A stretch of 41,155 nt of DNA from a virus. The notes beneath the pieces were generated by a model. It had not been told where the DNA came from. It was given only the letters and a program-made list of their open reading frames with translations, and ran no database searches. Positions 1,959 through 40,443 of the stretch are shown piece by piece. The DNA lies in IMG/VR virus record IMGVR_UViG_3300032224_000484, positions 1-41,155 of that record; one strand, given 5' to 3'. Both the position numbers and the translations under genes were made by a program. Positions within the stretch are counted from its first letter, which is position 1. The number at the start of each line of letters is the position of its first letter.

Positions 1959-2431
1959 ACGCAGTCACAAGCATCGTATATGCCAGCGAAGACCCAGCCA
2001 CATTTGTGGATGAGATGCAGGCCCTTCTGCCCGAGCATTACGATGAATTGTGTGTTACAAAAGATTTTCCTTTAGCGCCAGACTATGTTGGATATGGTCG
2101 TTTGGTTATGGCCGGTATGCTGCGCTGCATCACATGCAGGGCTGAAGGTAATTTGATTGGTTACATAATTTTTATTGTGCAACCGCATTTACACTATATG
2201 ACCTGCAAAACTGCTTTTGAAGACCTGTATTTTGTCAAGAAAGAATTCCGTCAAGGCCGAATTGGGATTAGATTATTCCAATACGCCGAAGATGTGCTCA
2301 AGCAAGATGGTGTTAACAGAATCATCATGCACACCAAAATTCATTTAGATAACTCTCGGTTGTTTGAGTACCTCGGGTACAAGCACACTGACAAACTCTA
2401 CACAAAGATATTGAGCACGGAGTCGGTATGA
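1955..2431 (+). CDS. GNAT-family N-acetyltransferase
   Basis: 158 residues. The acetyl-CoA binding signature (Q/R-x-x-G-x-G/A) is seen as QGRIGI at residues 100-105, preceded by the beta-strand FEDLYFVKKEFR and followed by the helix RLFQYAEDVLKQ. The C-terminal LFEYLGYKHTDKLYTKIL matches the usual 'GF/Y' end of GNAT folds. It probably transfers an acetyl group to an amine on a protein or small molecule; the substrate is unknown. It overlaps both neighbours by 4 bp (ATGA), so it is translated with the two flanking virion proteins and could modify one of them. A GNAT gene between tail genes is a recurrent phage arrangement. Confidence 0.8.
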   Translation: MNAVTSIVYASEDPATFVDEMQALLPEHYDELCVTKDFPLAPDYVGYGRLVMAGMLRCITCRAEGNLIGYIIFIVQPHLHYMTCKTAFEDLYFVKKEFRQGRIGIRLFQYAEDVLKQDGVNRIIMHTKIHLDNSRLFEYLGYKHTDKLYTKILSTESV

Positions 2432-4965
2432 ACATTTCACGTAAACAACTTTACGCTTTAGGCGAACCTTTTGGCGATTCAGCTACCCGTTTAAAACCCG
2501 GTGGTCGTGTATACGGCGGTGGCTCTAGCACTCCTGCGGATACAACAAATGTCCAAACAATGGAGTTGCCCGAGTGGGCACGGGGCTATGCTAAAGATAC
2601 GCTGGCCAAAACTTCTGCGTTAACCGACATCAATAAAAACCCGTATCAACAATATCAAGGCAACCGTATTGCTGGGTTCCAACCCATGCAGCAGCAGGCA
2701 TTTGAAGGCGCGGCAAACATGCAGCCGTCCGCGCAGGTTGGCATGGGTACAGGTTTGGCCGGTGCAGCCGGTATCGGTGCGCTCGGTACAAATTACCAAG
2801 GCGGGCAATTTCAAGGCGGTCAGTTTGATAATCAAGCTGCCCAGCAGTACATGAACCCCTACACACAAAATGTAGTGGATTACCAGAAGTCCCAAGCACT
2901 GCGAGACTTTCAAATTGCTCAGCCAATGCGTAATGCTCAGGCCGTAGGTGCGGGTGCGTTTGGTGGAAGCCGACAGGCCATTCAGGATGCTGAAGCACAG
3001 CGTACTTTGAACTCTCAGTTGCAAGGTATCGAGGCTACTGGCCAACAAAATGCGTTCCAACAAGCTCAGCAGCAATTTAATGCCGACCAAGCTCGCCGTA
3101 TGCAGGCTCAGCAGTTGGGTGAACAGTCTCGGCAGTATGGCGCGGGTCTGGGAATGCAAGGTTTACAAACAGCGTTACAAAGTGCTGGTACTCTTGGTCA
3201 ACTTGGCCAAACTCAGTATGGCCAGCAAATGGGCATTAACCAATTACAAAGTGCGTATGGCACACAGCAGCAACAGCAGGCCCAACGTCCGCTGGATATG
3301 GCGTATCAGGATTTCCTGAACCAACAGAACTACCCATACAAACAGTTGGGCTTCATGTCCGACATGATCCGTGGTTTGCCGCTTGGCCAACAGTCTACTG
3401 CTCAGGTGTATCAGGCTCCCCCGTCTGCTATTCAGACCGTGGGTGCGCTCGGCCTTGGTGCTTACGGTATCAACCAATTAACAAAAGCCGATGGTGGCTT
3501 GGCCGGTGCTTACGCTGGCGGGGGTATGGTTGCGTTTGGTGACGGTGGCAATACCGATATTCCCCATTCCCCAATGGATGACCCATCTAAGATGGCAGAA
3601 GCAGTATCCAAGCTCAGCGACGAACAGCTTCAAGAAATTATTCAGCATCCATCTAGTGCAGCAGAACTTCAAGCTGCCAAAACAGAATTGGCTACCCGTG
3701 CTTCAGAACATAGAGGCTTGGCCAGCGCGTACAACATCATGCCGCAACAAGCACCATCAATGCAAGAAACCCCCCAAGCTCCGGTAATGCAAGCCGCACA
3801 TGGCGGCATTATGGGGTTCAAAGACAGAGGCGCGGTAGAAAGCGATGATGAAGAAGAAGTGACAGCAGCTTTTGATCCAAGCCAACTTTTCTCTGGCAGC
3901 TATACGCCCGGCAACCAAAAAAACTTTGATTTATGGAATCAAAGATTAGCCGACGCATATAAAGCTCAAACCGATTACCAACCTTCTGCTCCCATGACAG
4001 AAGATGAGCGCCGTGCAGCTACTACTGCAAACTATAAAGAAGTCATGGCAATGGCTGGCCCATCTCCATATGAGGCGCAAAATGCTCGTATATCTGGGCT
4101 GGAAAAACAACAAGCCGGTAATTTGGAACAGCAAAAAGGTTTGGCTGCTATTGCCGCGATACCCACAGTTCTTCAGGGCGGTAATGCCATACGAGGTATA
4201 GGCGCTGGCGTTGGGGCGTTTGGTGGAATGTACGGTAAAGCTCTACAAGCTGACCGCGAAGAAAAACGCTCTCTTATGAGCATGAAAAATAACTTGGAAG
4301 ATGCGCAGTACAAACTGCGGGTCGGTATGGTTGGCGATGCACGTCAGCTTACTGCCGAAGCACGCCGCGACAAACAGGCCGCAGAAGCTGCAAATATTGC
4401 GAAGAACAAAGCGTTGGGTGTAACTGCCGCCGCTGCCGCAAACCTTAACAAACCTCAACGTCCGTTGGTACAAAAACCAGCGACCGTTAAAGAACCAAAG
4501 GTCAATGAACAATTGGCTGCGGCTGAAATTGCACTTGAAACTAATCCATCACCTACTAATAAAGCTAAAGTCGAAGCCTTGCGCCGTACAGTAGACCGAA
4601 TCAGAACTTCTGATGTTGGCCCAACTAAAGCTGGCGGTGTTGGTGCAGAGCTTTCTAGCAAAGAAACATTGGCTGCTTCTACCGCTGCCAAGAAAGCCGC
4701 ACTGCGCAATGAAGATTGGCAAAACGCTACTACTCAAGCCGAGAAAGATGCGGTTGAACAGCGTTTGTTTGAAGCTGAAATAGAAAAAATACAATCTGGC
4801 AAACAAAAACTTGGCGCGGAAAAACCCGCTCCTACGGCGACAAAGCCTTTGTCCTTACCAGCCAACCCCAAAGCTACTGACTTAAAGGATGGAGTCGTAT
4901 ATAGTACGCCAAGGGGTAACGCCAAATGGAATGCAAATACACAGAAATTCACGCCTGTACCATAA
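2428..4965 (+). CDS. Large Gln/Ala-rich virion protein (internal/tail)
   Basis: 845 residues, ATGA-coupled to the GNAT gene. The N-terminus holds a LPEWARGYAKDTLAKTSALT segment and GNRIAGFQPMQQQA. Residues ~130-310 are extremely rich in Gln and Ala and read as long amphipathic helices. Two glycine motifs, AYAGGGMVAFGDGG (~364-377) and AAHGGIMGFKDRGA, follow. Residues ~520-760 are charged and helical, and the end is short and basic. There is no enzymatic motif. Composition and position between tail genes and the giant protein fit an internal or tail-associated structural protein, possibly ejected with the DNA. The function is inference. Confidence 0.6.
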   Translation: MNISRKQLYALGEPFGDSATRLKPGGRVYGGGSSTPADTTNVQTMELPEWARGYAKDTLAKTSALTDINKNPYQQYQGNRIAGFQPMQQQAFEGAANMQPSAQVGMGTGLAGAAGIGALGTNYQGGQFQGGQFDNQAAQQYMNPYTQNVVDYQKSQALRDFQIAQPMRNAQAVGAGAFGGSRQAIQDAEAQRTLNSQLQGIEATGQQNAFQQAQQQFNADQARRMQAQQLGEQSRQYGAGLGMQGLQTALQSAGTLGQLGQTQYGQQMGINQLQSAYGTQQQQQAQRPLDMAYQDFLNQQNYPYKQLGFMSDMIRGLPLGQQSTAQVYQAPPSAIQTVGALGLGAYGINQLTKADGGLAGAYAGGGMVAFGDGGNTDIPHSPMDDPSKMAEAVSKLSDEQLQEIIQHPSSAAELQAAKTELATRASEHRGLASAYNIMPQQAPSMQETPQAPVMQAAHGGIMGFKDRGAVESDDEEEVTAAFDPSQLFSGSYTPGNQKNFDLWNQRLADAYKAQTDYQPSAPMTEDERRAATTANYKEVMAMAGPSPYEAQNARISGLEKQQAGNLEQQKGLAAIAAIPTVLQGGNAIRGIGAGVGAFGGMYGKALQADREEKRSLMSMKNNLEDAQYKLRVGMVGDARQLTAEARRDKQAAEAANIAKNKALGVTAAAAANLNKPQRPLVQKPATVKEPKVNEQLAAAEIALETNPSPTNKAKVEALRRTVDRIRTSDVGPTKAGGVGAELSSKETLAASTAAKKAALRNEDWQNATTQAEKDAVEQRLFEAEIEKIQSGKQKLGAEKPAPTATKPLSLPANPKATDLKDGVVYSTPRGNAKWNANTQKFTPVP

Positions 4966-4974
4966 GGGGTCACT

Positions 4975-7900
4975 ATGGCTAAAGATTTTTCACTGGATGA
5001 GGCACTGACCCCACCGCCTCAAGAAGAGTTTGGTCTTTCTGATTTATTTGCGGCGGAAGAACCTACGGGCGTTAAAAATTATGTGCCTAGAAAACCTCAA
5101 GGCCCTGTCCGAACTTTTCAAGGTAAAACTTACCCGCCTAAACAAGTAAAGCCTGCGCCCGTAGCCGACACTGATTTTGACACCGGCAATGCGGCAGGGG
5201 ATGAGTTTGGTTCGGCAATTATGAATGCGCCGCAGCAATACCAGAGCATCATGGCGGGCCGAAAGCTACCTGAGCTTCCAACAGAGGATCGCGCCGTTGT
5301 AAACCCTCAATTTGTAACTGCGGTTCAAGCACAACTAAACGCACTGCCCACCGAACAGCGCCAAGCTGCTTTGGACAAAATGACTCAACGGCCAGATGTG
5401 TATGGCCGAGCCGCTCGTGCTATTGCTGGCCGGTATGCGGCAATGGATCAAAACCAAACTCCTACGGCTAGGAAGTTTGACCCACGTCTTGAAGCTCAGA
5501 CTGAACGGTTTGCTGAGCAAGGAATAGAACGCCCAGAAGATTACGCTAAAGCTCAAGCGTTGAGCGGTCGGTTGATGCCTGATTTGCAGCAGATGACACC
5601 AGATGTTGTAGGTGAGCAAGCCGATGTTGAAGCACAAAAGCGTGCCAAAGAACTTGCCGATGCCGACTTCATGGATCGTGTTGGTGCTGGTGTTCGTTCT
5701 CAATGGACAAAATCCGGTATGGGTTTGTTGCAAGCCTATGCAGATTTGACTGGCGATAAACAGTTTAGTTCTGATTTAAACAGCGCACGTCGTATTGAAG
5801 AAGCCCGTGAGAAAGTTATCCCTCAAGGCGAAAGCATATTTGAAAAGTCATTTCAAGGAGCAATGACAAGTTTGGGTTCCCAAGCACCGTTTATGGTTAT
5901 GAGTGCAGTTACAGGTACTCCACTCCCTGTGCTGGCTCAAGCAGCGATCCAACAGTTTGGGGATTCTTACGGCGAAGGAAAAGCTGCGGGTTTATCGGGT
6001 TCAGCATCAGCAGCAAGGGCAATTCCAACAGCCGCAGCCGAAGTATTCTTTGAGCGTTTTGGTATGACCAAAGCCCTTGCTGGCTTGAAGTCCCACATTG
6101 CCAAGTATGGCGTAGACAGTGTGCCTAAGTACGTGGCGCAATCTATTGCCTCTGAATTACCCGCTGAATTAGCTACCACTGCTACGCAATACGCAATTGA
6201 TGCAATGCCAGAAATTGGGTTGAACAAAAACCCAAGCATGGTCGATCTATACAAACAACTTGAAGAGACCCTGCGTCAAACAGTTCTTCAAGCTGGTGCA
6301 ACTGCTGGCGTGACTATAGGTGCGGTTAAAGGTGGCCAAAAAGTTGCTCAGATGCTCGGCCCACGCGAAGGCGCGTACCAACGTGATACATCTTACGAAG
6401 GTATATCTGAAATCATCGCTCGGTCAAAAGGGTTCTTGACCCCTGAAGAACGCCAACAAAGAGAGCAGAAAACAGAGTTTGGTTTAGATGAGCTTGGCGC
6501 AGAACGCCCCGGTGTTGAAGTAAAACAAGAACCTATTACTTCAGTGGATTTAGGCGAAGTACGCCCCGGCGCTGAAGTAACGCCCCCGGCGGCTCCTAAA
6601 ATTGAAGTTGCTACAAGAGTTGATCGTAAGCAGCAGATTGAAGCACTGGCTACACAGATAGCCGAAGAACAAGGCATACCTGATGAAGATGCACGCCGTA
6701 TTGCTACGTCACAAGTAATAGCTCAAGAACTAAAAGAGAAAAAAGCTGCTGCGGATTTGGTTACTAAACCTCAAGAAGACCGCGTAAAGGCCCGTGCTCA
6801 AGAACTGCTGTCTGAGGGTGTGACCCTAAACCCAACCGAGGCTATAAACATAGCCACAACAGAAATTCAAGAACAGGATGAAGCCGATGCGCTTGCTGCA
6901 AGAGAAGCACAAGGAGAAACAAATGCTGGACAAATTGACACCACAACAGGTAGAGCAGGCGTTTCAGTGGCTGGACAGCCCGGTGCAATCGTACCCACCG
7001 GAGGGGCTAAAGGCTCTAAGCGAAGTAGAGTGGTTTCTACTGGAGAGAATGTTGCAGGGGCTACTGGCGGAAAAAGATCGAAACCCAGTGCAATAGTCGA
7101 TGAACGTGGTGCGATCATTCCCTCCCCTAAAAAGGGAGAAGACCCAATTGCGTCTGCTGGGTTTAAAACGCTTGAAGAAGACAACAACATATCCGATGAT
7201 CTTGTAGGGGCTACCTTCATTACCGGTATGAACGCATCGGCAAAGAACAAAGGTGCGGGTACAAAACTTTTAAAGTCAATTACAAATTGGGCGGATACAA
7301 ACGGCAAGACATTGGTTCTTGTTCCTTCAGCAAGCCCAGATGCTGAGTTGGGTGGGTTGTCCCAAGAACAGTTAAAAGACTGGTACACACGTAATGGATT
7401 TGAAGACCGTGTGGATTACATGGTCAGAGCGCCAAAACAAAAAGCTACTCTTGGTGCGCCAGTCAGACTTACGGAAGAGCAGAAAAAACAAAAGCTTGCT
7501 GAGAGTGCGCCGGTACAAGCAGAAAAAGCCCGCGCAGAACGTGCATTGACACGTATCAACCAAACGCTTGACGCTTTGGCCAAACCAATAACTGAAGATG
7601 AGTTTGAGTCAGAAAACGAATATGCAGAAGCACAGCAAGCGACACGAACCAAACGCCGCGATGCAATCAAAGAACTGCTCATATTGAAGGGCAACCCAGC
7701 CCTGCGCGGAACCAAAGTCGGTGAGCGTATCAATGCGGCATTGGCACGCCCAGATATTTCTGCAAAAGAAAAAGCTGAAATCCAGTCGGGTATTGACGCA
7801 GTCAACAAAGCCAAGATGTCTGGCCCATCCGCGTCTACGACTACCAAAGAACCTGCTGATACTAGATACAATAAGTTCACGACTGGCCCACAAGCCATAT

Positions 7901-10900
7901 CTCACATCGTCAAAACAGGTACAAAATTCCAACAGCGGTTGGCCAAGCGCCTCCGTGGGTTTGTAACCAAAGTTCGTTTTGTGGTTATTGAAGAAGGTCA
8001 AGAGCTACCCGAACAACTGAAAACCCCCAAAAATGCTGCTGCATGGGATCGCTCAATTGCACTCTACATCGAGAACTACAAAACCAACGACCAAGTCATT
8101 TACGTGCGCGGTGCGTCCTTTGGCAATGACCAAGGCATCAACAACCTCACCGTGCTGCACGAATTGCTGCACGCTGCAACAAACCGCAAGATTGCTTTGG
8201 CCAAGGCGTTTATCGACAAGGGCATTCACCTTAATCACCCGGTTGTAAAAGCATTCCAAGACCTCATCCGCACAATGAACAGCGCGGGTCGGGCGTATGA
8301 AGATTTAGCCAAGCGCAACAAGCTACCCATGCACATGGTCAAGCTCAAGTACGACGGCGATATATTCTCTGACCCACGCGAGTTCGTTGCTTATGGTTTG
8401 ACAGACGAGACCATGCAAGACTTCCTGATGCAAGCCGAGGGCTTCGAGGAAGACACATCGTATTTGAGCCGTTTTGTTCGGGCAATACGTGATTTGTTTG
8501 GTATGGGTGAAAGCGATACCAATGCACTGACCGATTTGGTTATTGCAACCGAGAGCATCCTAAAGAGCCGCCCACCAAAGATTAAGGCTAAGGGTGAGCA
8601 GGTTAGCCGTACCAGCAAAGACACAACTCCTGATGTACAGGGTGAGACCGTATCGGCTAGACCGACTGCCAACGTGCAGCGACTGACCAAGATGCTTGGT
8701 TCAAAACTGTATGGCTCACCTGAAGATATTGGCAAAGTCTCTATCAAAGAGTTGTTTCAAAATGGTTTTGACGCAATCAAAGAAGCAATGGAGAAGGGGC
8801 AGATCACCAAAGGCAAGATTGATATAAACATAGACTCCAATAACCGCACCATAAGTGTGGTTGACAACGGCCCCGGCATGCCCACCAGTGTGATGGGTAA
8901 TCAGTTCTTGCAAATTGCAGGTACGGTTAAAGGTACGAAGCGTGCATCTGGTGGTCTTGGTGTTGCCAAAATGTTATTCTTGTTCGAGAACAAGAAACTA
9001 GAAGTCGTGTCTTTACGTGATGGCGTACTGTCTCGTATGGTCACGACAGGGGAGGATTTAAAAGAAGCGTTTGATGACCCTTCACGCGCCCCACAAATCA
9101 CTACTTCGTCTGATCCCGATACTCTTGAAAAATATGAAGATATGTTCCCCGATGGCCACGGAACAGCCGTGGTCATTGAAATACCAGAAACATACACCGA
9201 CACATCTACAGGGGAAGAAAAGAATATTAAGTTCAGTACATATGACTTGGAGGATGCTCCAGTTTTACGGTACAGCCCTTTATTTGATGACATAGAAGTA
9301 TCTGTAAAAACAAGTGGGTTCCCTAGAAAAATAGAACTCGGAAACAATTTCCCCATCCAAGACTACACTCCTTTTGCAAATGTAAATTTTGCTTGGGGTA
9401 CTGCGCGTATTTACGTAACAAAAGAAAAGACAAGCCCCCCATACAAAGGCAATACACATATATTGTCAAATGGCTTGTGGCAATTTGATACCAACTTAAA
9501 AGATAGACCCGGTTGGGAAGGCAAGCAAATTGAACGAGTCTTTTATATCGACGTATCCCCTGCGTCTGATGTAAAGCCAGAAGATGCTGCGTACCCATTC
9601 GATCTCAATCGGCAAAACTTTTCTCAGCAAGCTGGGCAAGACTTCCAAAAAATATTTAACTACATAACCGCTATTTATGGCCAATTAGATTTGGCCGCAA
9701 GTGTAAAAAACTTTGGTACTGTTCAATACGTAAACAGCGATGGCTCGCTGACCACCGCAGAAGTGTTGGAGCCTAACGCTCCAATAACAGACAACGCTTT
9801 TACGCTTATCAAGCCCGGCGATGAAGTTGAAGTTAGAGACGGCGTGTTGTATGTCAATAACCGTGGGCTCCCTGAATTGTCTATTGATGATTTAAAAAAT
9901 ACTGCGCCACGTCTTGATGAATTGACCATACCTCAGAATGAGATTGATCCGCAAAAGATCATGGTTCATGACAACACTACGTATTTAAGAGTTAGTTCAG
10001 ACCCTACAAATACGTTACTTGATTTCACACTTAGCCCAGAAGCAGGGGAAGAGTTTATACTTAAATTTGATTCAAACAACAAAGTAATTGGGCTTGATGT
10101 TTTTAGTCTTGATAAAGACGGATATAGAACTTCCGTAGAAAGAACATTAACGGGTGACGCTAAATCCATTTTGAACCAATTAGAAAATCTTGGGTGGTTA
10201 CCTGCAACAATGAAAAATGGGGGCGAGTCCCTTTCAGATAAAGCGCGGGAGAAATTTGGCGGCAAACGCTACGATAGATACTTGGCAACAATTGGAAAGA
10301 CTTTCCAAACGCTTCGTAATGCCTTGGTTGCATCTGGAAGTGACTATGGTTCTCTTGCCGACGAAGCAATCGGTACAAGTATTGACAACGAATACTACGG
10401 TGTCAGTATCATATTGCCGTTCCGTGGTATGTTCATCAACCCCGCAACGACTGATTTGCGTGGTAGCCCGGAAGAAATTGCGCTATCCATGATTGGTACG
10501 ATGATCCATGAGTTGGCTCACTTTAGAGTGCGGAGTCATGGCGCTGATTTTGCAAGCGAAATGCAGCGTGTAATGGTGTTGTTGAAGGTTTCTCCAAATC
10601 TAAATTTGGCTTCGATGGAGAAAAATCTAACCAACCATATCAAAGCTAACCAAGATATTTTTGATTTTTTAAACAAGGAGTTCCGTAATGGAGATCTCAA
10701 GCCTCGTGGAAACCGCTTCAAAGACGCTGGCGGGCACCAGCAAATTGAAAATGAAGGTTCTTCTAAGCCAATGGAAAACACTGGCGGAGCAGGAGACGAA
10801 TGGCGACCCAGCTTATCCGCAAGCACTGGGCAGGGCACTGGGGGTGCTGGAAAAGTCGGCATCGGTCAAGGACTTAATAACGAAGCTGAAGAAGTTGGAG

Positions 10901-13833
10901 ATGCAGTAAGGACGCAAAGGGAAATTGATAAAGCGGTCAAAATTGCCGCCGAGCAATTCTCAGAGTCCAAGAAAGGCTACGACTTTTCCAAAGCAGTGAC
11001 AGTGCTCCAGATGTTGCAGCACCCAACTGAAGTCATCCCTGCGCTCAGAGCACTTTGGAAACGTGCGACTCTTGCACAACGTAACGCACTGGTTAAGTTG
11101 CCGACTACCGAGTTCTTGGCTGACTGGGCTGGGAACGCAGTGCCCGAGTTACAAAATACATCACGCTTGCTTCGCTTGATGAACGGCATGACGCTTAAGT
11201 TGCTCAAGTCTGCCGGAGAACTTACCAAAGAAATTGAACGTGCGTTCCGTGCTGACCATACCCTGCGTGCCAAGCTGGACAGAATCACGCTTATGTCTAC
11301 GCTTGCAGAAGTAGACCCGTCTGACCCATTGGCCAAAGAACGCAATGCCGACTTGGACAAGCAATACAAAGCCCTTGGTGTAGATGGCCAACGTATATAC
11401 AAGCGTGTCAAAGAACATTTTGAACGTCTGTCCGAGTACTTCACTCAGCTGCTCGACGACCAGATAACTGATTCCAAATTGCCGATTGCAGAAAAAGCAA
11501 ACCTGATGAAGAAGATCAGGTCAATCTACGAAACCGGTAGCAAGATCTATCCATACTTCCCCTTGGTGCGCCAAGGCGATTTCTGGTTGTCAATTGGCAA
11601 AGGCAAGACTCGTAAGTTCTTCATGTTTGAAACTCTGGAAGAACGCGACAACGCCATGCAGAAGTTTGCTGATGAGCGTATCAAACAAAAACCGGGTGAG
11701 TCCAACTCAGCGTTCCAAAGACGCCGCGCTGATAACCTCTTGGAGCTGATTACCGACCAAGAATTTGTACATGGCAACAGCATTTCTGAACTACGTAGAA
11801 ACAGTGCAGATAGCAGCGCATTGCTGATGGAAATTTTTAGCGCTATTGATAGTGCAAGTCTTGGTGAAACAGAAGCAAAAGAAACACTCAAGGATGCCAT
11901 CTATCAGGTGTACTTGCAGTCGATGCCGGATCAAAGTTTCCGTAAGCAGTTCATCCATCGTAAAGGCGTAACTGGCTTTCGACCAGACCTCCTGCGCAAT
12001 GTGGCGCACACTTCAGCAAAAATGGCAACCCAGCTTGCTCGTATTAAGTACGCTCCGTTGTTGCGCAATTCTGTGTCGGCAGCAAGAGATTCAATCTTAA
12101 ACCGTCCAACATATGAGCCGTTTGTTACCGAGATGGCCAGCCGTGTGCGGGACTCTTTGGGTAAGTTCCAAGAGGGAGCAATATCCAAATTTGTTGGGCT
12201 TGTTAACAAAGCGTCGTACATCTATTATTTGAGCGGTGCAAGCTCAGCGCTTTTACAGCCTTTGAGTATTTTCCAAACCGGTATGCCGGTGCTGTCTAGG
12301 TACGGAACAATCAATGCTACCCGCGAGATGGGGCGCATGATGAACATATTCCAGCAGTACGGATACTACAAAGACAACAAGGATGGTACTAAGTCTTGGG
12401 TTGCTCCTTCCATTGAGCACTCAAAGATACTTACTCCTGAAGAACGCAAAGCTGTTCGTGAGATGCTGGCCCGTGACGTGACAACGTCTACGTATGCCAA
12501 CGCAGTCTTTGAATACAAGAAAACCCCCACCGAAAACTTGTCGCCTCCAATCGTGAGCTTTGGTAAGAATACTGTGGATATGCTTGTGCTCGGCGGATTG
12601 ATGCACTCAACTGAGCGTTTGTCCCGTGAGATGATGTTCATGTCTTCTTTCCGGTTGAACCGACAGGCGGGCAAAACTTTTGAGCAGGCGATTGAGCAAG
12701 CTACGTACGACACCAATGAAGCCCTTGGTAACTACGGCGACTACAACAGACCGGGGTTCATGCGCAGTCTGCCGGGTAAAGTTCTGACACAGTTCATGAT
12801 GTACCCCCTGCACGTAACGCTGTTCTTATTGAAGAATTTCAAAGAAATGGCTGTCCCAATGGACGGACGCACTCGTGCTGAAGCGGCCAAGAAGTTCTTT
12901 GGTACGTTGGGCACCTCATTTATTCTCGCTGGTACTGTTGGCTTACCTATGTTCAGCACAGTCATGGGCTTACTTGGCTGGGCTTGGAATCAAATGAAAG
13001 ATGACGATTGGCCAGAAGATATGAAGTCTATGGACTTTGAATTCTGGTTCCGCACCGTGTGGCTTGAAGAACAGCTCGGCGGTGTAAGAATTGGTGGTAA
13101 GAAACTGTCGGACATCGTAGAACGTGGTGTTGTAAACGCTTTGACCGGCTTGGATATTTCAGGCCGTACAAGTCTAAATAATCTGTGGGTACGTGAGCAG
13201 AAAGAAGTCAAAGGGGTCAAAGACGAAATCATGAATCTTGCTTTGGAAAAAGCTGGCCCCGGTGTAAATATGTTTGTATCTTGGGCTGAAGGTATTGAAG
13301 CGTTCTATCGGGGCGATCTTGACAAAGGCGTTAGAAAAGTCACGCCTGCGGGTTACCGTAACTTCAAGACTGCTTATGATCTACTTACTGAAGGCGCAAA
13401 AGACAATAAGGGCGTAAAGCTCCTATCCAAAGATGCGTTCAGCACAGGTATGTTGATTGGCCAAGCAATTGGTTTCCGTTCAGACTTGTTGGCCAATACT
13501 CAGTATGTGAACTTCAAAGTCATGGGCTTACAACAACGAATTGAAAATGAACGTACTCGCTTGATGGTGGACGTTGAAAAACAATTCCGTGAGAAAGAGT
13601 TTAAGAAGTTCAACCAACTCCTCAACAAAGATGTAATCAAGTTCAACAAGCGTTACCCTACGTTTGAGATTACCGATGAAGAGATCTTGGCCTCAATCGA
13701 GAAACGTGAAGAGCAACGTGCGGAATCATGGCGCGGTGTATCCATCACCGACAAGAACGCAACTTTGTTTACTAAAGCTCTGAAGCCTTCCCGCCAAGCC
13801 GCCAGAGAAGCGGAACAAGCTGGGCGCAAATAA
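4975..13833 (+). CDS. Giant polyvalent virion protein: GNAT-like region, two zincins, GHKL ATPase
   Basis: 2952 residues, with an AAGGGG ribosome binding site. Visible parts in order: a Gly/Ala-rich, membrane-like segment at ~290-460; a GNAT-like region at ~720-822 with GAGTKLLKSI and a WYTRNGFEDRVDYMVRAP ending; a zinc metallopeptidase motif HELLH at 1062-1066; a GHKL (Hsp90/MutL-type) ATPase with N-box N1263, DNGPGM at 1297-1302 and glycine loop GGLG at 1326-1329; a second zincin motif HELAH at 1845-1849; long helical regions; and hydrophobic segments near 2636-2680. Multi-enzyme proteins of this kind are the 'polyvalent proteins' thought to be injected with phage DNA to act on host targets. 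Low-complexity linkers near residues 650-708 and 1905-1979 coincide with two nested genes. It is the last gene before the convergent terminator at 13.84 kb. Confidence 0.8.
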   Translation: MAKDFSLDEALTPPPQEEFGLSDLFAAEEPTGVKNYVPRKPQGPVRTFQGKTYPPKQVKPAPVADTDFDTGNAAGDEFGSAIMNAPQQYQSIMAGRKLPELPTEDRAVVNPQFVTAVQAQLNALPTEQRQAALDKMTQRPDVYGRAARAIAGRYAAMDQNQTPTARKFDPRLEAQTERFAEQGIERPEDYAKAQALSGRLMPDLQQMTPDVVGEQADVEAQKRAKELADADFMDRVGAGVRSQWTKSGMGLLQAYADLTGDKQFSSDLNSARRIEEAREKVIPQGESIFEKSFQGAMTSLGSQAPFMVMSAVTGTPLPVLAQAAIQQFGDSYGEGKAAGLSGSASAARAIPTAAAEVFFERFGMTKALAGLKSHIAKYGVDSVPKYVAQSIASELPAELATTATQYAIDAMPEIGLNKNPSMVDLYKQLEETLRQTVLQAGATAGVTIGAVKGGQKVAQMLGPREGAYQRDTSYEGISEIIARSKGFLTPEERQQREQKTEFGLDELGAERPGVEVKQEPITSVDLGEVRPGAEVTPPAAPKIEVATRVDRKQQIEALATQIAEEQGIPDEDARRIATSQVIAQELKEKKAAADLVTKPQEDRVKARAQELLSEGVTLNPTEAINIATTEIQEQDEADALAAREAQGETNAGQIDTTTGRAGVSVAGQPGAIVPTGGAKGSKRSRVVSTGENVAGATGGKRSKPSAIVDERGAIIPSPKKGEDPIASAGFKTLEEDNNISDDLVGATFITGMNASAKNKGAGTKLLKSITNWADTNGKTLVLVPSASPDAELGGLSQEQLKDWYTRNGFEDRVDYMVRAPKQKATLGAPVRLTEEQKKQKLAESAPVQAEKARAERALTRINQTLDALAKPITEDEFESENEYAEAQQATRTKRRDAIKELLILKGNPALRGTKVGERINAALARPDISAKEKAEIQSGIDAVNKAKMSGPSASTTTKEPADTRYNKFTTGPQAISHIVKTGTKFQQRLAKRLRGFVTKVRFVVIEEGQELPEQLKTPKNAAAWDRSIALYIENYKTNDQVIYVRGASFGNDQGINNLTVLHELLHAATNRKIALAKAFIDKGIHLNHPVVKAFQDLIRTMNSAGRAYEDLAKRNKLPMHMVKLKYDGDIFSDPREFVAYGLTDETMQDFLMQAEGFEEDTSYLSRFVRAIRDLFGMGESDTNALTDLVIATESILKSRPPKIKAKGEQVSRTSKDTTPDVQGETVSARPTANVQRLTKMLGSKLYGSPEDIGKVSIKELFQNGFDAIKEAMEKGQITKGKIDINIDSNNRTISVVDNGPGMPTSVMGNQFLQIAGTVKGTKRASGGLGVAKMLFLFENKKLEVVSLRDGVLSRMVTTGEDLKEAFDDPSRAPQITTSSDPDTLEKYEDMFPDGHGTAVVIEIPETYTDTSTGEEKNIKFSTYDLEDAPVLRYSPLFDDIEVSVKTSGFPRKIELGNNFPIQDYTPFANVNFAWGTARIYVTKEKTSPPYKGNTHILSNGLWQFDTNLKDRPGWEGKQIERVFYIDVSPASDVKPEDAAYPFDLNRQNFSQQAGQDFQKIFNYITAIYGQLDLAASVKNFGTVQYVNSDGSLTTAEVLEPNAPITDNAFTLIKPGDEVEVRDGVLYVNNRGLPELSIDDLKNTAPRLDELTIPQNEIDPQKIMVHDNTTYLRVSSDPTNTLLDFTLSPEAGEEFILKFDSNNKVIGLDVFSLDKDGYRTSVERTLTGDAKSILNQLENLGWLPATMKNGGESLSDKAREKFGGKRYDRYLATIGKTFQTLRNALVASGSDYGSLADEAIGTSIDNEYYGVSIILPFRGMFINPATTDLRGSPEEIALSMIGTMIHELAHFRVRSHGADFASEMQRVMVLLKVSPNLNLASMEKNLTNHIKANQDIFDFLNKEFRNGDLKPRGNRFKDAGGHQQIENEGSSKPMENTGGAGDEWRPSLSASTGQGTGGAGKVGIGQGLNNEAEEVGDAVRTQREIDKAVKIAAEQFSESKKGYDFSKAVTVLQMLQHPTEVIPALRALWKRATLAQRNALVKLPTTEFLADWAGNAVPELQNTSRLLRLMNGMTLKLLKSAGELTKEIERAFRADHTLRAKLDRITLMSTLAEVDPSDPLAKERNADLDKQYKALGVDGQRIYKRVKEHFERLSEYFTQLLDDQITDSKLPIAEKANLMKKIRSIYETGSKIYPYFPLVRQGDFWLSIGKGKTRKFFMFETLEERDNAMQKFADERIKQKPGESNSAFQRRRADNLLELITDQEFVHGNSISELRRNSADSSALLMEIFSAIDSASLGETEAKETLKDAIYQVYLQSMPDQSFRKQFIHRKGVTGFRPDLLRNVAHTSAKMATQLARIKYAPLLRNSVSAARDSILNRPTYEPFVTEMASRVRDSLGKFQEGAISKFVGLVNKASYIYYLSGASSALLQPLSIFQTGMPVLSRYGTINATREMGRMMNIFQQYGYYKDNKDGTKSWVAPSIEHSKILTPEERKAVREMLARDVTTSTYANAVFEYKKTPTENLSPPIVSFGKNTVDMLVLGGLMHSTERLSREMMFMSSFRLNRQAGKTFEQAIEQATYDTNEALGNYGDYNRPGFMRSLPGKVLTQFMMYPLHVTLFLLKNFKEMAVPMDGRTRAEAAKKFFGTLGTSFILAGTVGLPMFSTVMGLLGWAWNQMKDDDWPEDMKSMDFEFWFRTVWLEEQLGGVRIGGKKLSDIVERGVVNALTGLDISGRTSLNNLWVREQKEVKGVKDEIMNLALEKAGPGVNMFVSWAEGIEAFYRGDLDKGVRKVTPAGYRNFKTAYDLLTEGAKDNKGVKLLSKDAFSTGMLIGQAIGFRSDLLANTQYVNFKVMGLQQRIENERTRLMVDVEKQFREKEFKKFNQLLNKDVIKFNKRYPTFEITDEEILASIEKREEQRAESWRGVSITDKNATLFTKALKPSRQAAREAEQAGRK
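6923..7096 (+). CDS. Nested small gene inside the giant gene (frame +1)
   Basis: 57 residues, beginning MLDKLTPQQVEQAFQWLDSP and ending LLAEKDRNPVQ. It lies wholly inside the giant gene but in the +1 frame. An AAGGAG ribosome binding site at 6911-6916 sits 6 bases before the ATG. The product looks like a real folded helical protein with a normal mix of Leu, Trp, Glu and Pro, including SEVEWFLLERMLQGLL. The main frame across the same bases gives a Gly/Ser/Ala/Thr/Arg linker without secondary-structure pattern. This contrast argues that the small frame is the older or more constrained one. Its function is unknown. Expression would require internal initiation on the late mRNA. Confidence 0.55.
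   Translation: MLDKLTPQQVEQAFQWLDSPVQSYPPEGLKALSEVEWFLLERMLQGLLAEKDRNPVQ
10688..10909 (+). CDS. Second nested small gene inside the giant gene (frame +1)
   Basis: 73 residues, beginning MEISSLVETASKTLAGTSKL and ending VKDLITKLKKLEMQ, predicted to be almost wholly helical. AAGGAG at 10675-10680 lies 7 bases before the ATG, a near-ideal ribosome binding site. It uses the same +1 frame relative to the giant gene as the nested gene at 6923. The main frame here reads as a Gly/Asn/Ser-rich linker (for example STGQGTGGAGKVGIGQG) just after the second zincin region. Its function is unknown. The pair suggests that two small cistrons were overprinted when neighbouring genes fused into one giant reading frame, or that they arose inside flexible linkers. 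Confidence 0.55.
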   Translation: MEISSLVETASKTLAGTSKLKMKVLLSQWKTLAEQETNGDPAYPQALGRALGVLEKSASVKDLITKLKKLEMQ

Positions 13834-39852: not shown

Positions 39853-40043
39853 ACCATCAGGCGTTCCCGTATCTCCTAAAAGAAATTGCCAAGCTACGTG
39901 AAGATCAGGCTGTTTTCTTGACTGGCGGCGGTGCAAAAGATTTTGCCGAATATCGGCATGTTTGCGGGGTCATCCGAGGTCTGACCCATGCAGATCAACT
40001 TGTCAGAGACCTTGTGCAAAAAATGGAGTTTGAAGATGAGTGA
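39849..40043 (+). CDS. Small head-gene-cluster protein
   Basis: 64 residues: MNHQAFPYLLKEIAKLREDQ, GGGAKDFAEYRHVCGVIRGL, then LVQKMEFEDE. ATGA overlap with the portal and 8-bp overlap with the next gene. The 'GGAKD-AEYRH-CGVIRGL' motif is one I associate with a small phage protein next to portals. Helical; function unknown, possibly a head-assembly accessory. Confidence 0.75.
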   Translation: MNHQAFPYLLKEIAKLREDQAVFLTGGGAKDFAEYRHVCGVIRGLTHADQLVRDLVQKMEFEDE

Positions 40044-40443
40044 ATTTGATACCACTGCGGTAGATTTATCTGGCATTCTTAATACGAGTGCAGAAGATAA
40101 AGCGAAACAGTTGCCTGACCCAAAAACTTTCCACATTCTGTGCGTTGTTCCAGAAGCGATGGAGCAGTACCACGATAGCGAAGTTGGCATCATTAAAGCA
40201 GGGGACACCATGCACTATGAAGAAGTACTGACCCCAGTACTATTTGTAGTCAAGCTTGGCCCCGATGCTTATAAAGACGCATCTCGCTTTCCTAGTGGGC
40301 CATCATGTAAGGAAGGTGACTTCATCATCGTTCGACCCAATTCAGGCACCCGCTTGAAGATTCATGGCAGAGAGTTTCGCATCATCAATGACACCTCAAT
40401 CGAGGCAGTAGTTGAAGACCCCCGTGGCATTACACGAGCATAA
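40036..40443 (+). CDS. GroES-like co-chaperonin (candidate)
   Basis: 135 residues from the ATG at 40036 (GGAG upstream). The core PDPKTFHILCVVPEAMEQYH, then GIIKAGDTMHYEEVLTPVLF, GDFIIVRPNSGTRLKIHGRE and FRIINDTSIEAVVEDPRG follows the order of the chaperonin-10 fold: opening strand, mobile-loop-like segment, G-D-x-V-L/I strand, 'K-x-x-G-x-E-[FY]-x-I-I' and a final strand. Position between portal and scaffold fits a T4 gp31-like helper in capsid folding. The fold assignment is by motif reading, so moderate confidence. Confidence 0.6.
   Translation: MSEFDTTAVDLSGILNTSAEDKAKQLPDPKTFHILCVVPEAMEQYHDSEVGIIKAGDTMHYEEVLTPVLFVVKLGPDAYKDASRFPSGPSCKEGDFIIVRPNSGTRLKIHGREFRIINDTSIEAVVEDPRGITRA

Follow-up and report, generated by a model that had tools for sequence, protein, structure and literature searches.

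A very probable 57-residue gene overprinted on the linker of a giant, polyvalent-type phage gene

The window, i.e., the whole stretch of DNA analyzed here, is an IMG/VR virus record with a length of 41,155 bases. It features a giant gene just downstream of a gene for a DNA ejection protein and, wholly within the giant ORF 4975–13833, on the same strand and in another frame, a complete ORF of 57 residues that carries no annotation. The elements of this locus are as follows:

2428..4965, plus strand: upstream gene of the same late block, DNA ejection protein (PHROG 4287)
4975..13833, plus strand: giant gene, 2,952 aa, polyvalent-type, with a HATPase-like region, LPD39, and a DarB-like C-terminal part
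6911..6916, plus strand: Shine–Dalgarno sequence AAGGAG, ending 6 nt before the nested ATG
6922..7098, plus strand: giant-frame stretch under the nested gene, giant residues ~650–708, a Gly/Ala/Pro/Thr/Val-rich linker
6923..7096, plus strand: putative nested gene, 57 aa and a TAG stop, MLDKLTPQQVEQAFQWLDSPVQSYPPEGLKALSEVEWFLLERMLQGLLAEKDRNPVQ, with predicted helices at residues 7–18 and 34–53

A codon of the giant starts at 6922 and the nested ATG at 6923; hence, the nested frame is +1 relative to the giant frame. The ORF at 6923–7096 and the AAGGAG six bases 5′ of its ATG had been pointed out in a preliminary description of this DNA, and all of these elements are present in the sequence. An upstream in-frame ATG at 6878, which would give a protein of 72 aa, was rejected as the start, the conserved start in the alignment being the one at 6923.

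The giant matches LPD39 (E 7e-8), HATPase_c_3 (E 1e-5), and the DarB-like PHROG 10089 (E 2e-56) and, hence, combines several disparate domains with large-polyvalent-associated domains in the manner of the polyvalent proteins. The HATPase-like region (GyrB/Hsp90/histidine kinase), located at 8740–9069 of the window, is largely unmatched in an alignment of 21 giants. At the far end of the window, a GroES-like co-chaperonin gene is found at 39988–40443 (PHROG 3188, E 2e-6), which is also annotated in related cultured phages. In the relatives compared, the nested gene is located where the N-terminal part of the giant gives way to its body; the median position of the nested start is codon 479, in giants of ~2,100 residues. 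Across 151 relatives, the giant frame consists of 68% Gly, Ala, Pro, Val, and Thr at the overlap—in agreement with the earlier view of this stretch as a linker—and the stretch directly after the overlap is the most variable portion of the giant alignment. Because of this composition and the variability that follows it, the giant appears to use the place as a spacer.

The predicted product is a helical hairpin. The AlphaFold2 model reaches a mean pLDDT of 80 with 23 sequences and of 83 with 100 sequences. With a calculated pI of 4.4 and a GRAVY of −0.45, the nested protein is expected to be soluble and acidic rather than a lysis or membrane peptide. An Rz1-type spanin was considered and rejected: inspection reveals neither a signal nor a hydrophobic segment, in line with this GRAVY value, and the gene resides in an ejection-protein block. 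Sequence searches of Pfam, PHROG, and the PDB assigned no family (best E 0.07 in PHROG, 0.01 for one member only in Pfam, and 0.64 in the PDB), and Foldseek against the PDB and BFVD gave no match below E 1.9. The best Z of VIA-align, 4.2, is uninformative for a simple hairpin. No report of this nested gene was found in the open-access literature, the coverage of which is incomplete.

At least 130 IMG/VR contigs harbor relatives of the nested gene. When viral contigs were scanned with the nested protein as query, 50 relatives were obtained; scans with alignments yielded 132 matches, and pattern scans gave additional ones. The family has a well-defined anatomy: 176 of 177 relatives have a length of 55 to 58 aa, and the last residue is Gln or His in 175 of them. 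In a set of 100 diverse members, three residues (L5, L29, and W37) do not vary at all, and Q9, E11, A13, L17, P26, L32, E36, L40, L44, L47, and E50 are nearly invariant. The location is conserved as well, with 164 of 165 distinct proteins (E below 1e-8) sharing one register inside a long frame. The sole exception, L197 (12027), has a giant-frame stop within the overlap, ~28 codons past the nested start and near the contig end; this may be a sequencing error or a broken giant. A search begun from the C-terminal domain of the giant instead of the ORF found a nested ORF within the giant, again in the same register, at 47 of 52 loci. Two of the other five loci are truncated (L355 and L367), one is open at its 5′ end (L390), and two are complete (L377 and L382). 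The giants of the latter three contain neither a recognizable nested copy nor an SD-led candidate, and the nested gene is therefore not universal among such giants.

Every copy found is nested. In the viral contigs scanned, 50,697 phage records, and ~85,000 bacterial and archaeal genomes, no free-standing homologue was found; the search of the cultured phage records gave no homologue at all and that of the bacterial and archaeal genomes no copy. The preliminary description had likened the protein to free-standing small phage proteins and had named homologues occurring as independent genes as the proof of nesting; since none turned up in these searches, that likeness is unsupported. The window terminase is closest to those of DSL-LC04, 023Pt_psg01, and the pelagiphages HTVC027P and HTVC023P (48–59% identity), and in the stretches examined of these phages and of MinM2, a further terminase relative, the nested gene is absent. 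Because gene finders generally reject ORFs wholly within longer ones, this gene has remained without a name although at least 130 environmental phage contigs carry it.

The length of the ORF by itself is unremarkable and proves nothing. Synonymous shuffling of the giant gives 1.7 ATG-started ORFs of at least 57 aa in the nested register, of which 0.2 have a strong SD, and 14.6% of synonymous-codon permutations keep exactly the nested stretch open. In addition, further open stretches of 51 to 91 aa are present besides the nested ORF. The case for a nested gene is, hence, based on comparison, namely on conservation and on selection. An SD of at least 4 nt precedes 97% of the family starts versus 13% of the other ATGs in the same register. 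The aligned start codon is ATG in 145, GTG in 24, and CTG in 2 of 177 members, which places ATG or GTG at the same position in 169; approximately 6 of the 177 have none of the three codons there, which is a point against the gene being real. The nested family features conserved initiation signals of its own, as is expected of an overprinted gene.

Selection was assessed in both frames. The first test comprised 33 disjoint pairs picked by their distance in the nested region—a choice that could depress divergence there. The nested frame has a dS of 0.49 and a dN of 0.074 (dN/dS 0.15); for these bases read in the giant frame, dS is 0.073 and dN 0.178 (ratio 2.4). In the giant-frame flanks, dS amounts to 0.88–1.03 at a ratio of 0.38. 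Changes within the overlap are distributed over giant codon positions 1, 2, and 3 as 402, 207, and 123, which correspond to nested positions 3, 1, and 2, and upstream of it as 2518, 2246, and 3906. The free position in the overlap is the third position of the nested frame. The second test comprised 30 pairs of giant genes chosen on whole-giant similarity. Here, the two overlap bins have a giant pS of 0.047 and 0.086, as opposed to 0.28–0.57 in every other bin with enough sites, and pN/pS is 2.4 and 1.7 in the overlap bins versus 0.1–0.6 elsewhere. Both ways of choosing pairs lead to the same outcome, and the choice has no bearing on the codon-position pattern. For a second nested gene that these giants might conserve in common, no support emerges: the synonymous dip is seen only in the two overlap bins. 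Its confinement there speaks against additional nested genes conserved in them at a constant distance.

Purifying selection in the nested frame, hence, goes hand in hand with a lack of synonymous change in the giant frame, where synonymous sites are frozen and amino acids are free to change. These two properties of the giant frame mark the overlap as a linker with a base sequence maintained by the small gene—as judged by the substitution pattern, by selection on the small protein. The idea that a real gene is nested out of frame in the giant, together with the comparison of synonymous-site constraint across relatives proposed for it, is borne out in that the constraint acts on the nested frame, with the giant frame relaxed there. 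On these grounds, the stretch 6923–7096 of the window is, with very high probability, a genuine protein-coding overprinted gene.

From the conserved start signals, we infer that the small protein is translated by internal initiation on the mRNA of the giant. Ribosomes would start again at the internal SD and ATG on the late mRNA of the giant and then read the +1 frame, so that the acidic helical-hairpin protein of 57 residues would be made alongside the giant. The same bases would serve the giant only as a flexible linker that leads from its conserved N-terminal part to its variable middle part. As to function, the simplest reading, offered tentatively, is a cytosolic accessory that is made together with the giant and aids its folding, packaging, or ejection.

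The main alternative, a rather unlikely one, is that the protein is real but directed at the host—for takeover or antidefense—with the nesting in a late gene merely providing a place on a transcript. Small acidic helical proteins are frequent among host-directed phage factors, the giant belongs to the polyvalent class of proteins, which has been linked to host conflict (PMC5512222), and AcrIE3 appears in a second-look structural list, albeit at a Z of only 2.7 and an rmsd of 8.6. However, host-directed factors usually vary fast, whereas the core of this family (EWFLL, PP, and QVE) is strongly conserved in many phages; moreover, the nested gene keeps one place in one class of genes, and its position is late. 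Very unlikely is a translational device acting in cis, in which initiation or pausing would separate the folding of the N-terminal part of the giant from that of the rest and the peptide would be inert: the site between these two parts would suit such a device, but a role purely in cis would not maintain 57 residues at the dN/dS found, with an invariant Trp-containing core and a C-terminal Gln or His. Even less probable is entry into the small frame from the giant by ribosomal frameshifting, resulting in a fusion protein. The nested frame is indeed open upstream of its start, with a median of 19 codons, yet this stretch varies from 1 to 64 codons (5th–95th percentile), and the start codon and SD are conserved; a programmed frameshift product would have a conserved open lead-in and no start of its own, and it was rejected as an explanation. 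The probability is close to nil for a chance ORF in a low-complexity linker that owes its conservation to selection on the giant: chance alone does produce open stretches this long in the giant, but of the two frames here, that of the giant is less conserved (pN/pS above 1), the synonymous freezing is confined to the overlap, and the shuffling and SD comparisons contradict it as well. An RNA or DNA element behind the missing synonymous change is just as negligible, since the changes, for all the nucleotide-level conservation of the overlap, track the nested codon periodicity with nested position 3 as the most variable.

Nested ORFs of a similar kind are also seen in cultured phages. The DarB-like giants of the Erwinia phages Pavtok, Stean, and PEp14, the Serratia phage Parlo, and the Klebsiella phage ZX1 feature an unannotated nested ORF of 70 to 76 aa, in the same +1 register, at giant residue ~800–1030, with an SD-like sequence and ending in LH. 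Further LH-ending candidates are located in virion RNA polymerase (vRNAP) genes of N4-like Erwinia phages:

L398:2592–2819, L402:3808–4035, L404:3826–4053, L406:7204–7416, L403:7588–7797, +1 register: candidate ORFs in DarB-like giants
L411:8941–9162, L412:8914–9135, L410:8986–9195: candidate LH-ending ORFs in N4-like Erwinia vRNAP genes (phages S6, Fifi011, and Pastis)

The candidates of S6, Pastis, and Fifi011 share the register and lie at giant residue ~900–965, near the position of the linker that connects the NTD and the RNAP in the N4 virion RNA polymerase gp50 (residues 907–1007; PMC12633501). In a tblastn search with the ZX1 ORF, the genes of Pastis, S6, and Fifi011 gave E values of 0.01, 0.2, and 0.6, respectively, and no strong SD was seen at these three candidates. 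Sequence comparison for selection is suggestive in the Erwinia trio and weak in S6 and Fifi011. A natural presence/absence pair for the nested ORF is provided by ZX1 (L403), in which the linker with the ORF spans ~80 residues (giant residues ~1020–1100), and by SopranoGao and LASTA (L397 and L409), in which a linker of ~25 residues takes its place between nearly identical flanks. Homology of the cultured-phage ORFs to the window family is not supported by profile comparison; their resemblance may reflect convergence, remote homology, or partly chance. A second family in the linkers of cultured-phage giants, including N4-like virion RNA polymerases, is possible and is put forward as a lead only. 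That overprinting recurs in the linkers that follow the N-terminal domain in ejected podophage giants is a doubtful extension of this lead; the window family and the Erwinia, Serratia, and Klebsiella ORFs, including those in N4-like vRNAP genes, would then share one function in building or ejecting the giant, and linker and nested gene would be gained and lost as a unit.

The overlap of the window displays a clean division of labor: one frame would encode a folded protein, the other a linker in which nearly all sequences are tolerated. This suggests giant multidomain proteins as a place to hunt for hidden genes. If the accessory role proposed above holds true, the small protein would be a missing component in the making and delivery of ejected phage proteins of thousands of residues.

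Same-strand nested overprinted genes of phages include Rz1 within Rz of lambda-like phages and B, E, and K of phiX174. As in these systems, a complete small gene lies in, or largely in, another gene on the same strand, in another frame and with its own initiation signal. Unlike in these systems, the host gene in the window is a multi-kilobase giant of the ejection type rather than a small lysis or structural gene, the nested gene has no lipoprotein or membrane features, and the enclosing frame is under relaxed constraint where the two genes overlap. The giant itself resembles the polyvalent phage proteins (PMC5512222) by its late position, LPD39, the HATPase-like region, and the DarB-like C-terminal match to cultured podophages. 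The nested gene differs from the domains of polyvalent proteins by being a separate product, and a search by terms retrieved no overlapping gene from the survey of these proteins. N4 gp50 (PMC12633501) is, like the window giant, a giant ejected protein with a long flexible linker, which follows a membrane-inserting N-terminal domain; the N4 linker itself, unlike that of the window giant, carries no nested ORF. Of the annotated viral overlaps, 30% lie wholly within another gene (PMC7017920). Nested phage genes are, hence, a known kind; what is new is the family of proteins itself, its location within the linker of an ejection-type giant, and the relaxation of the enclosing frame.
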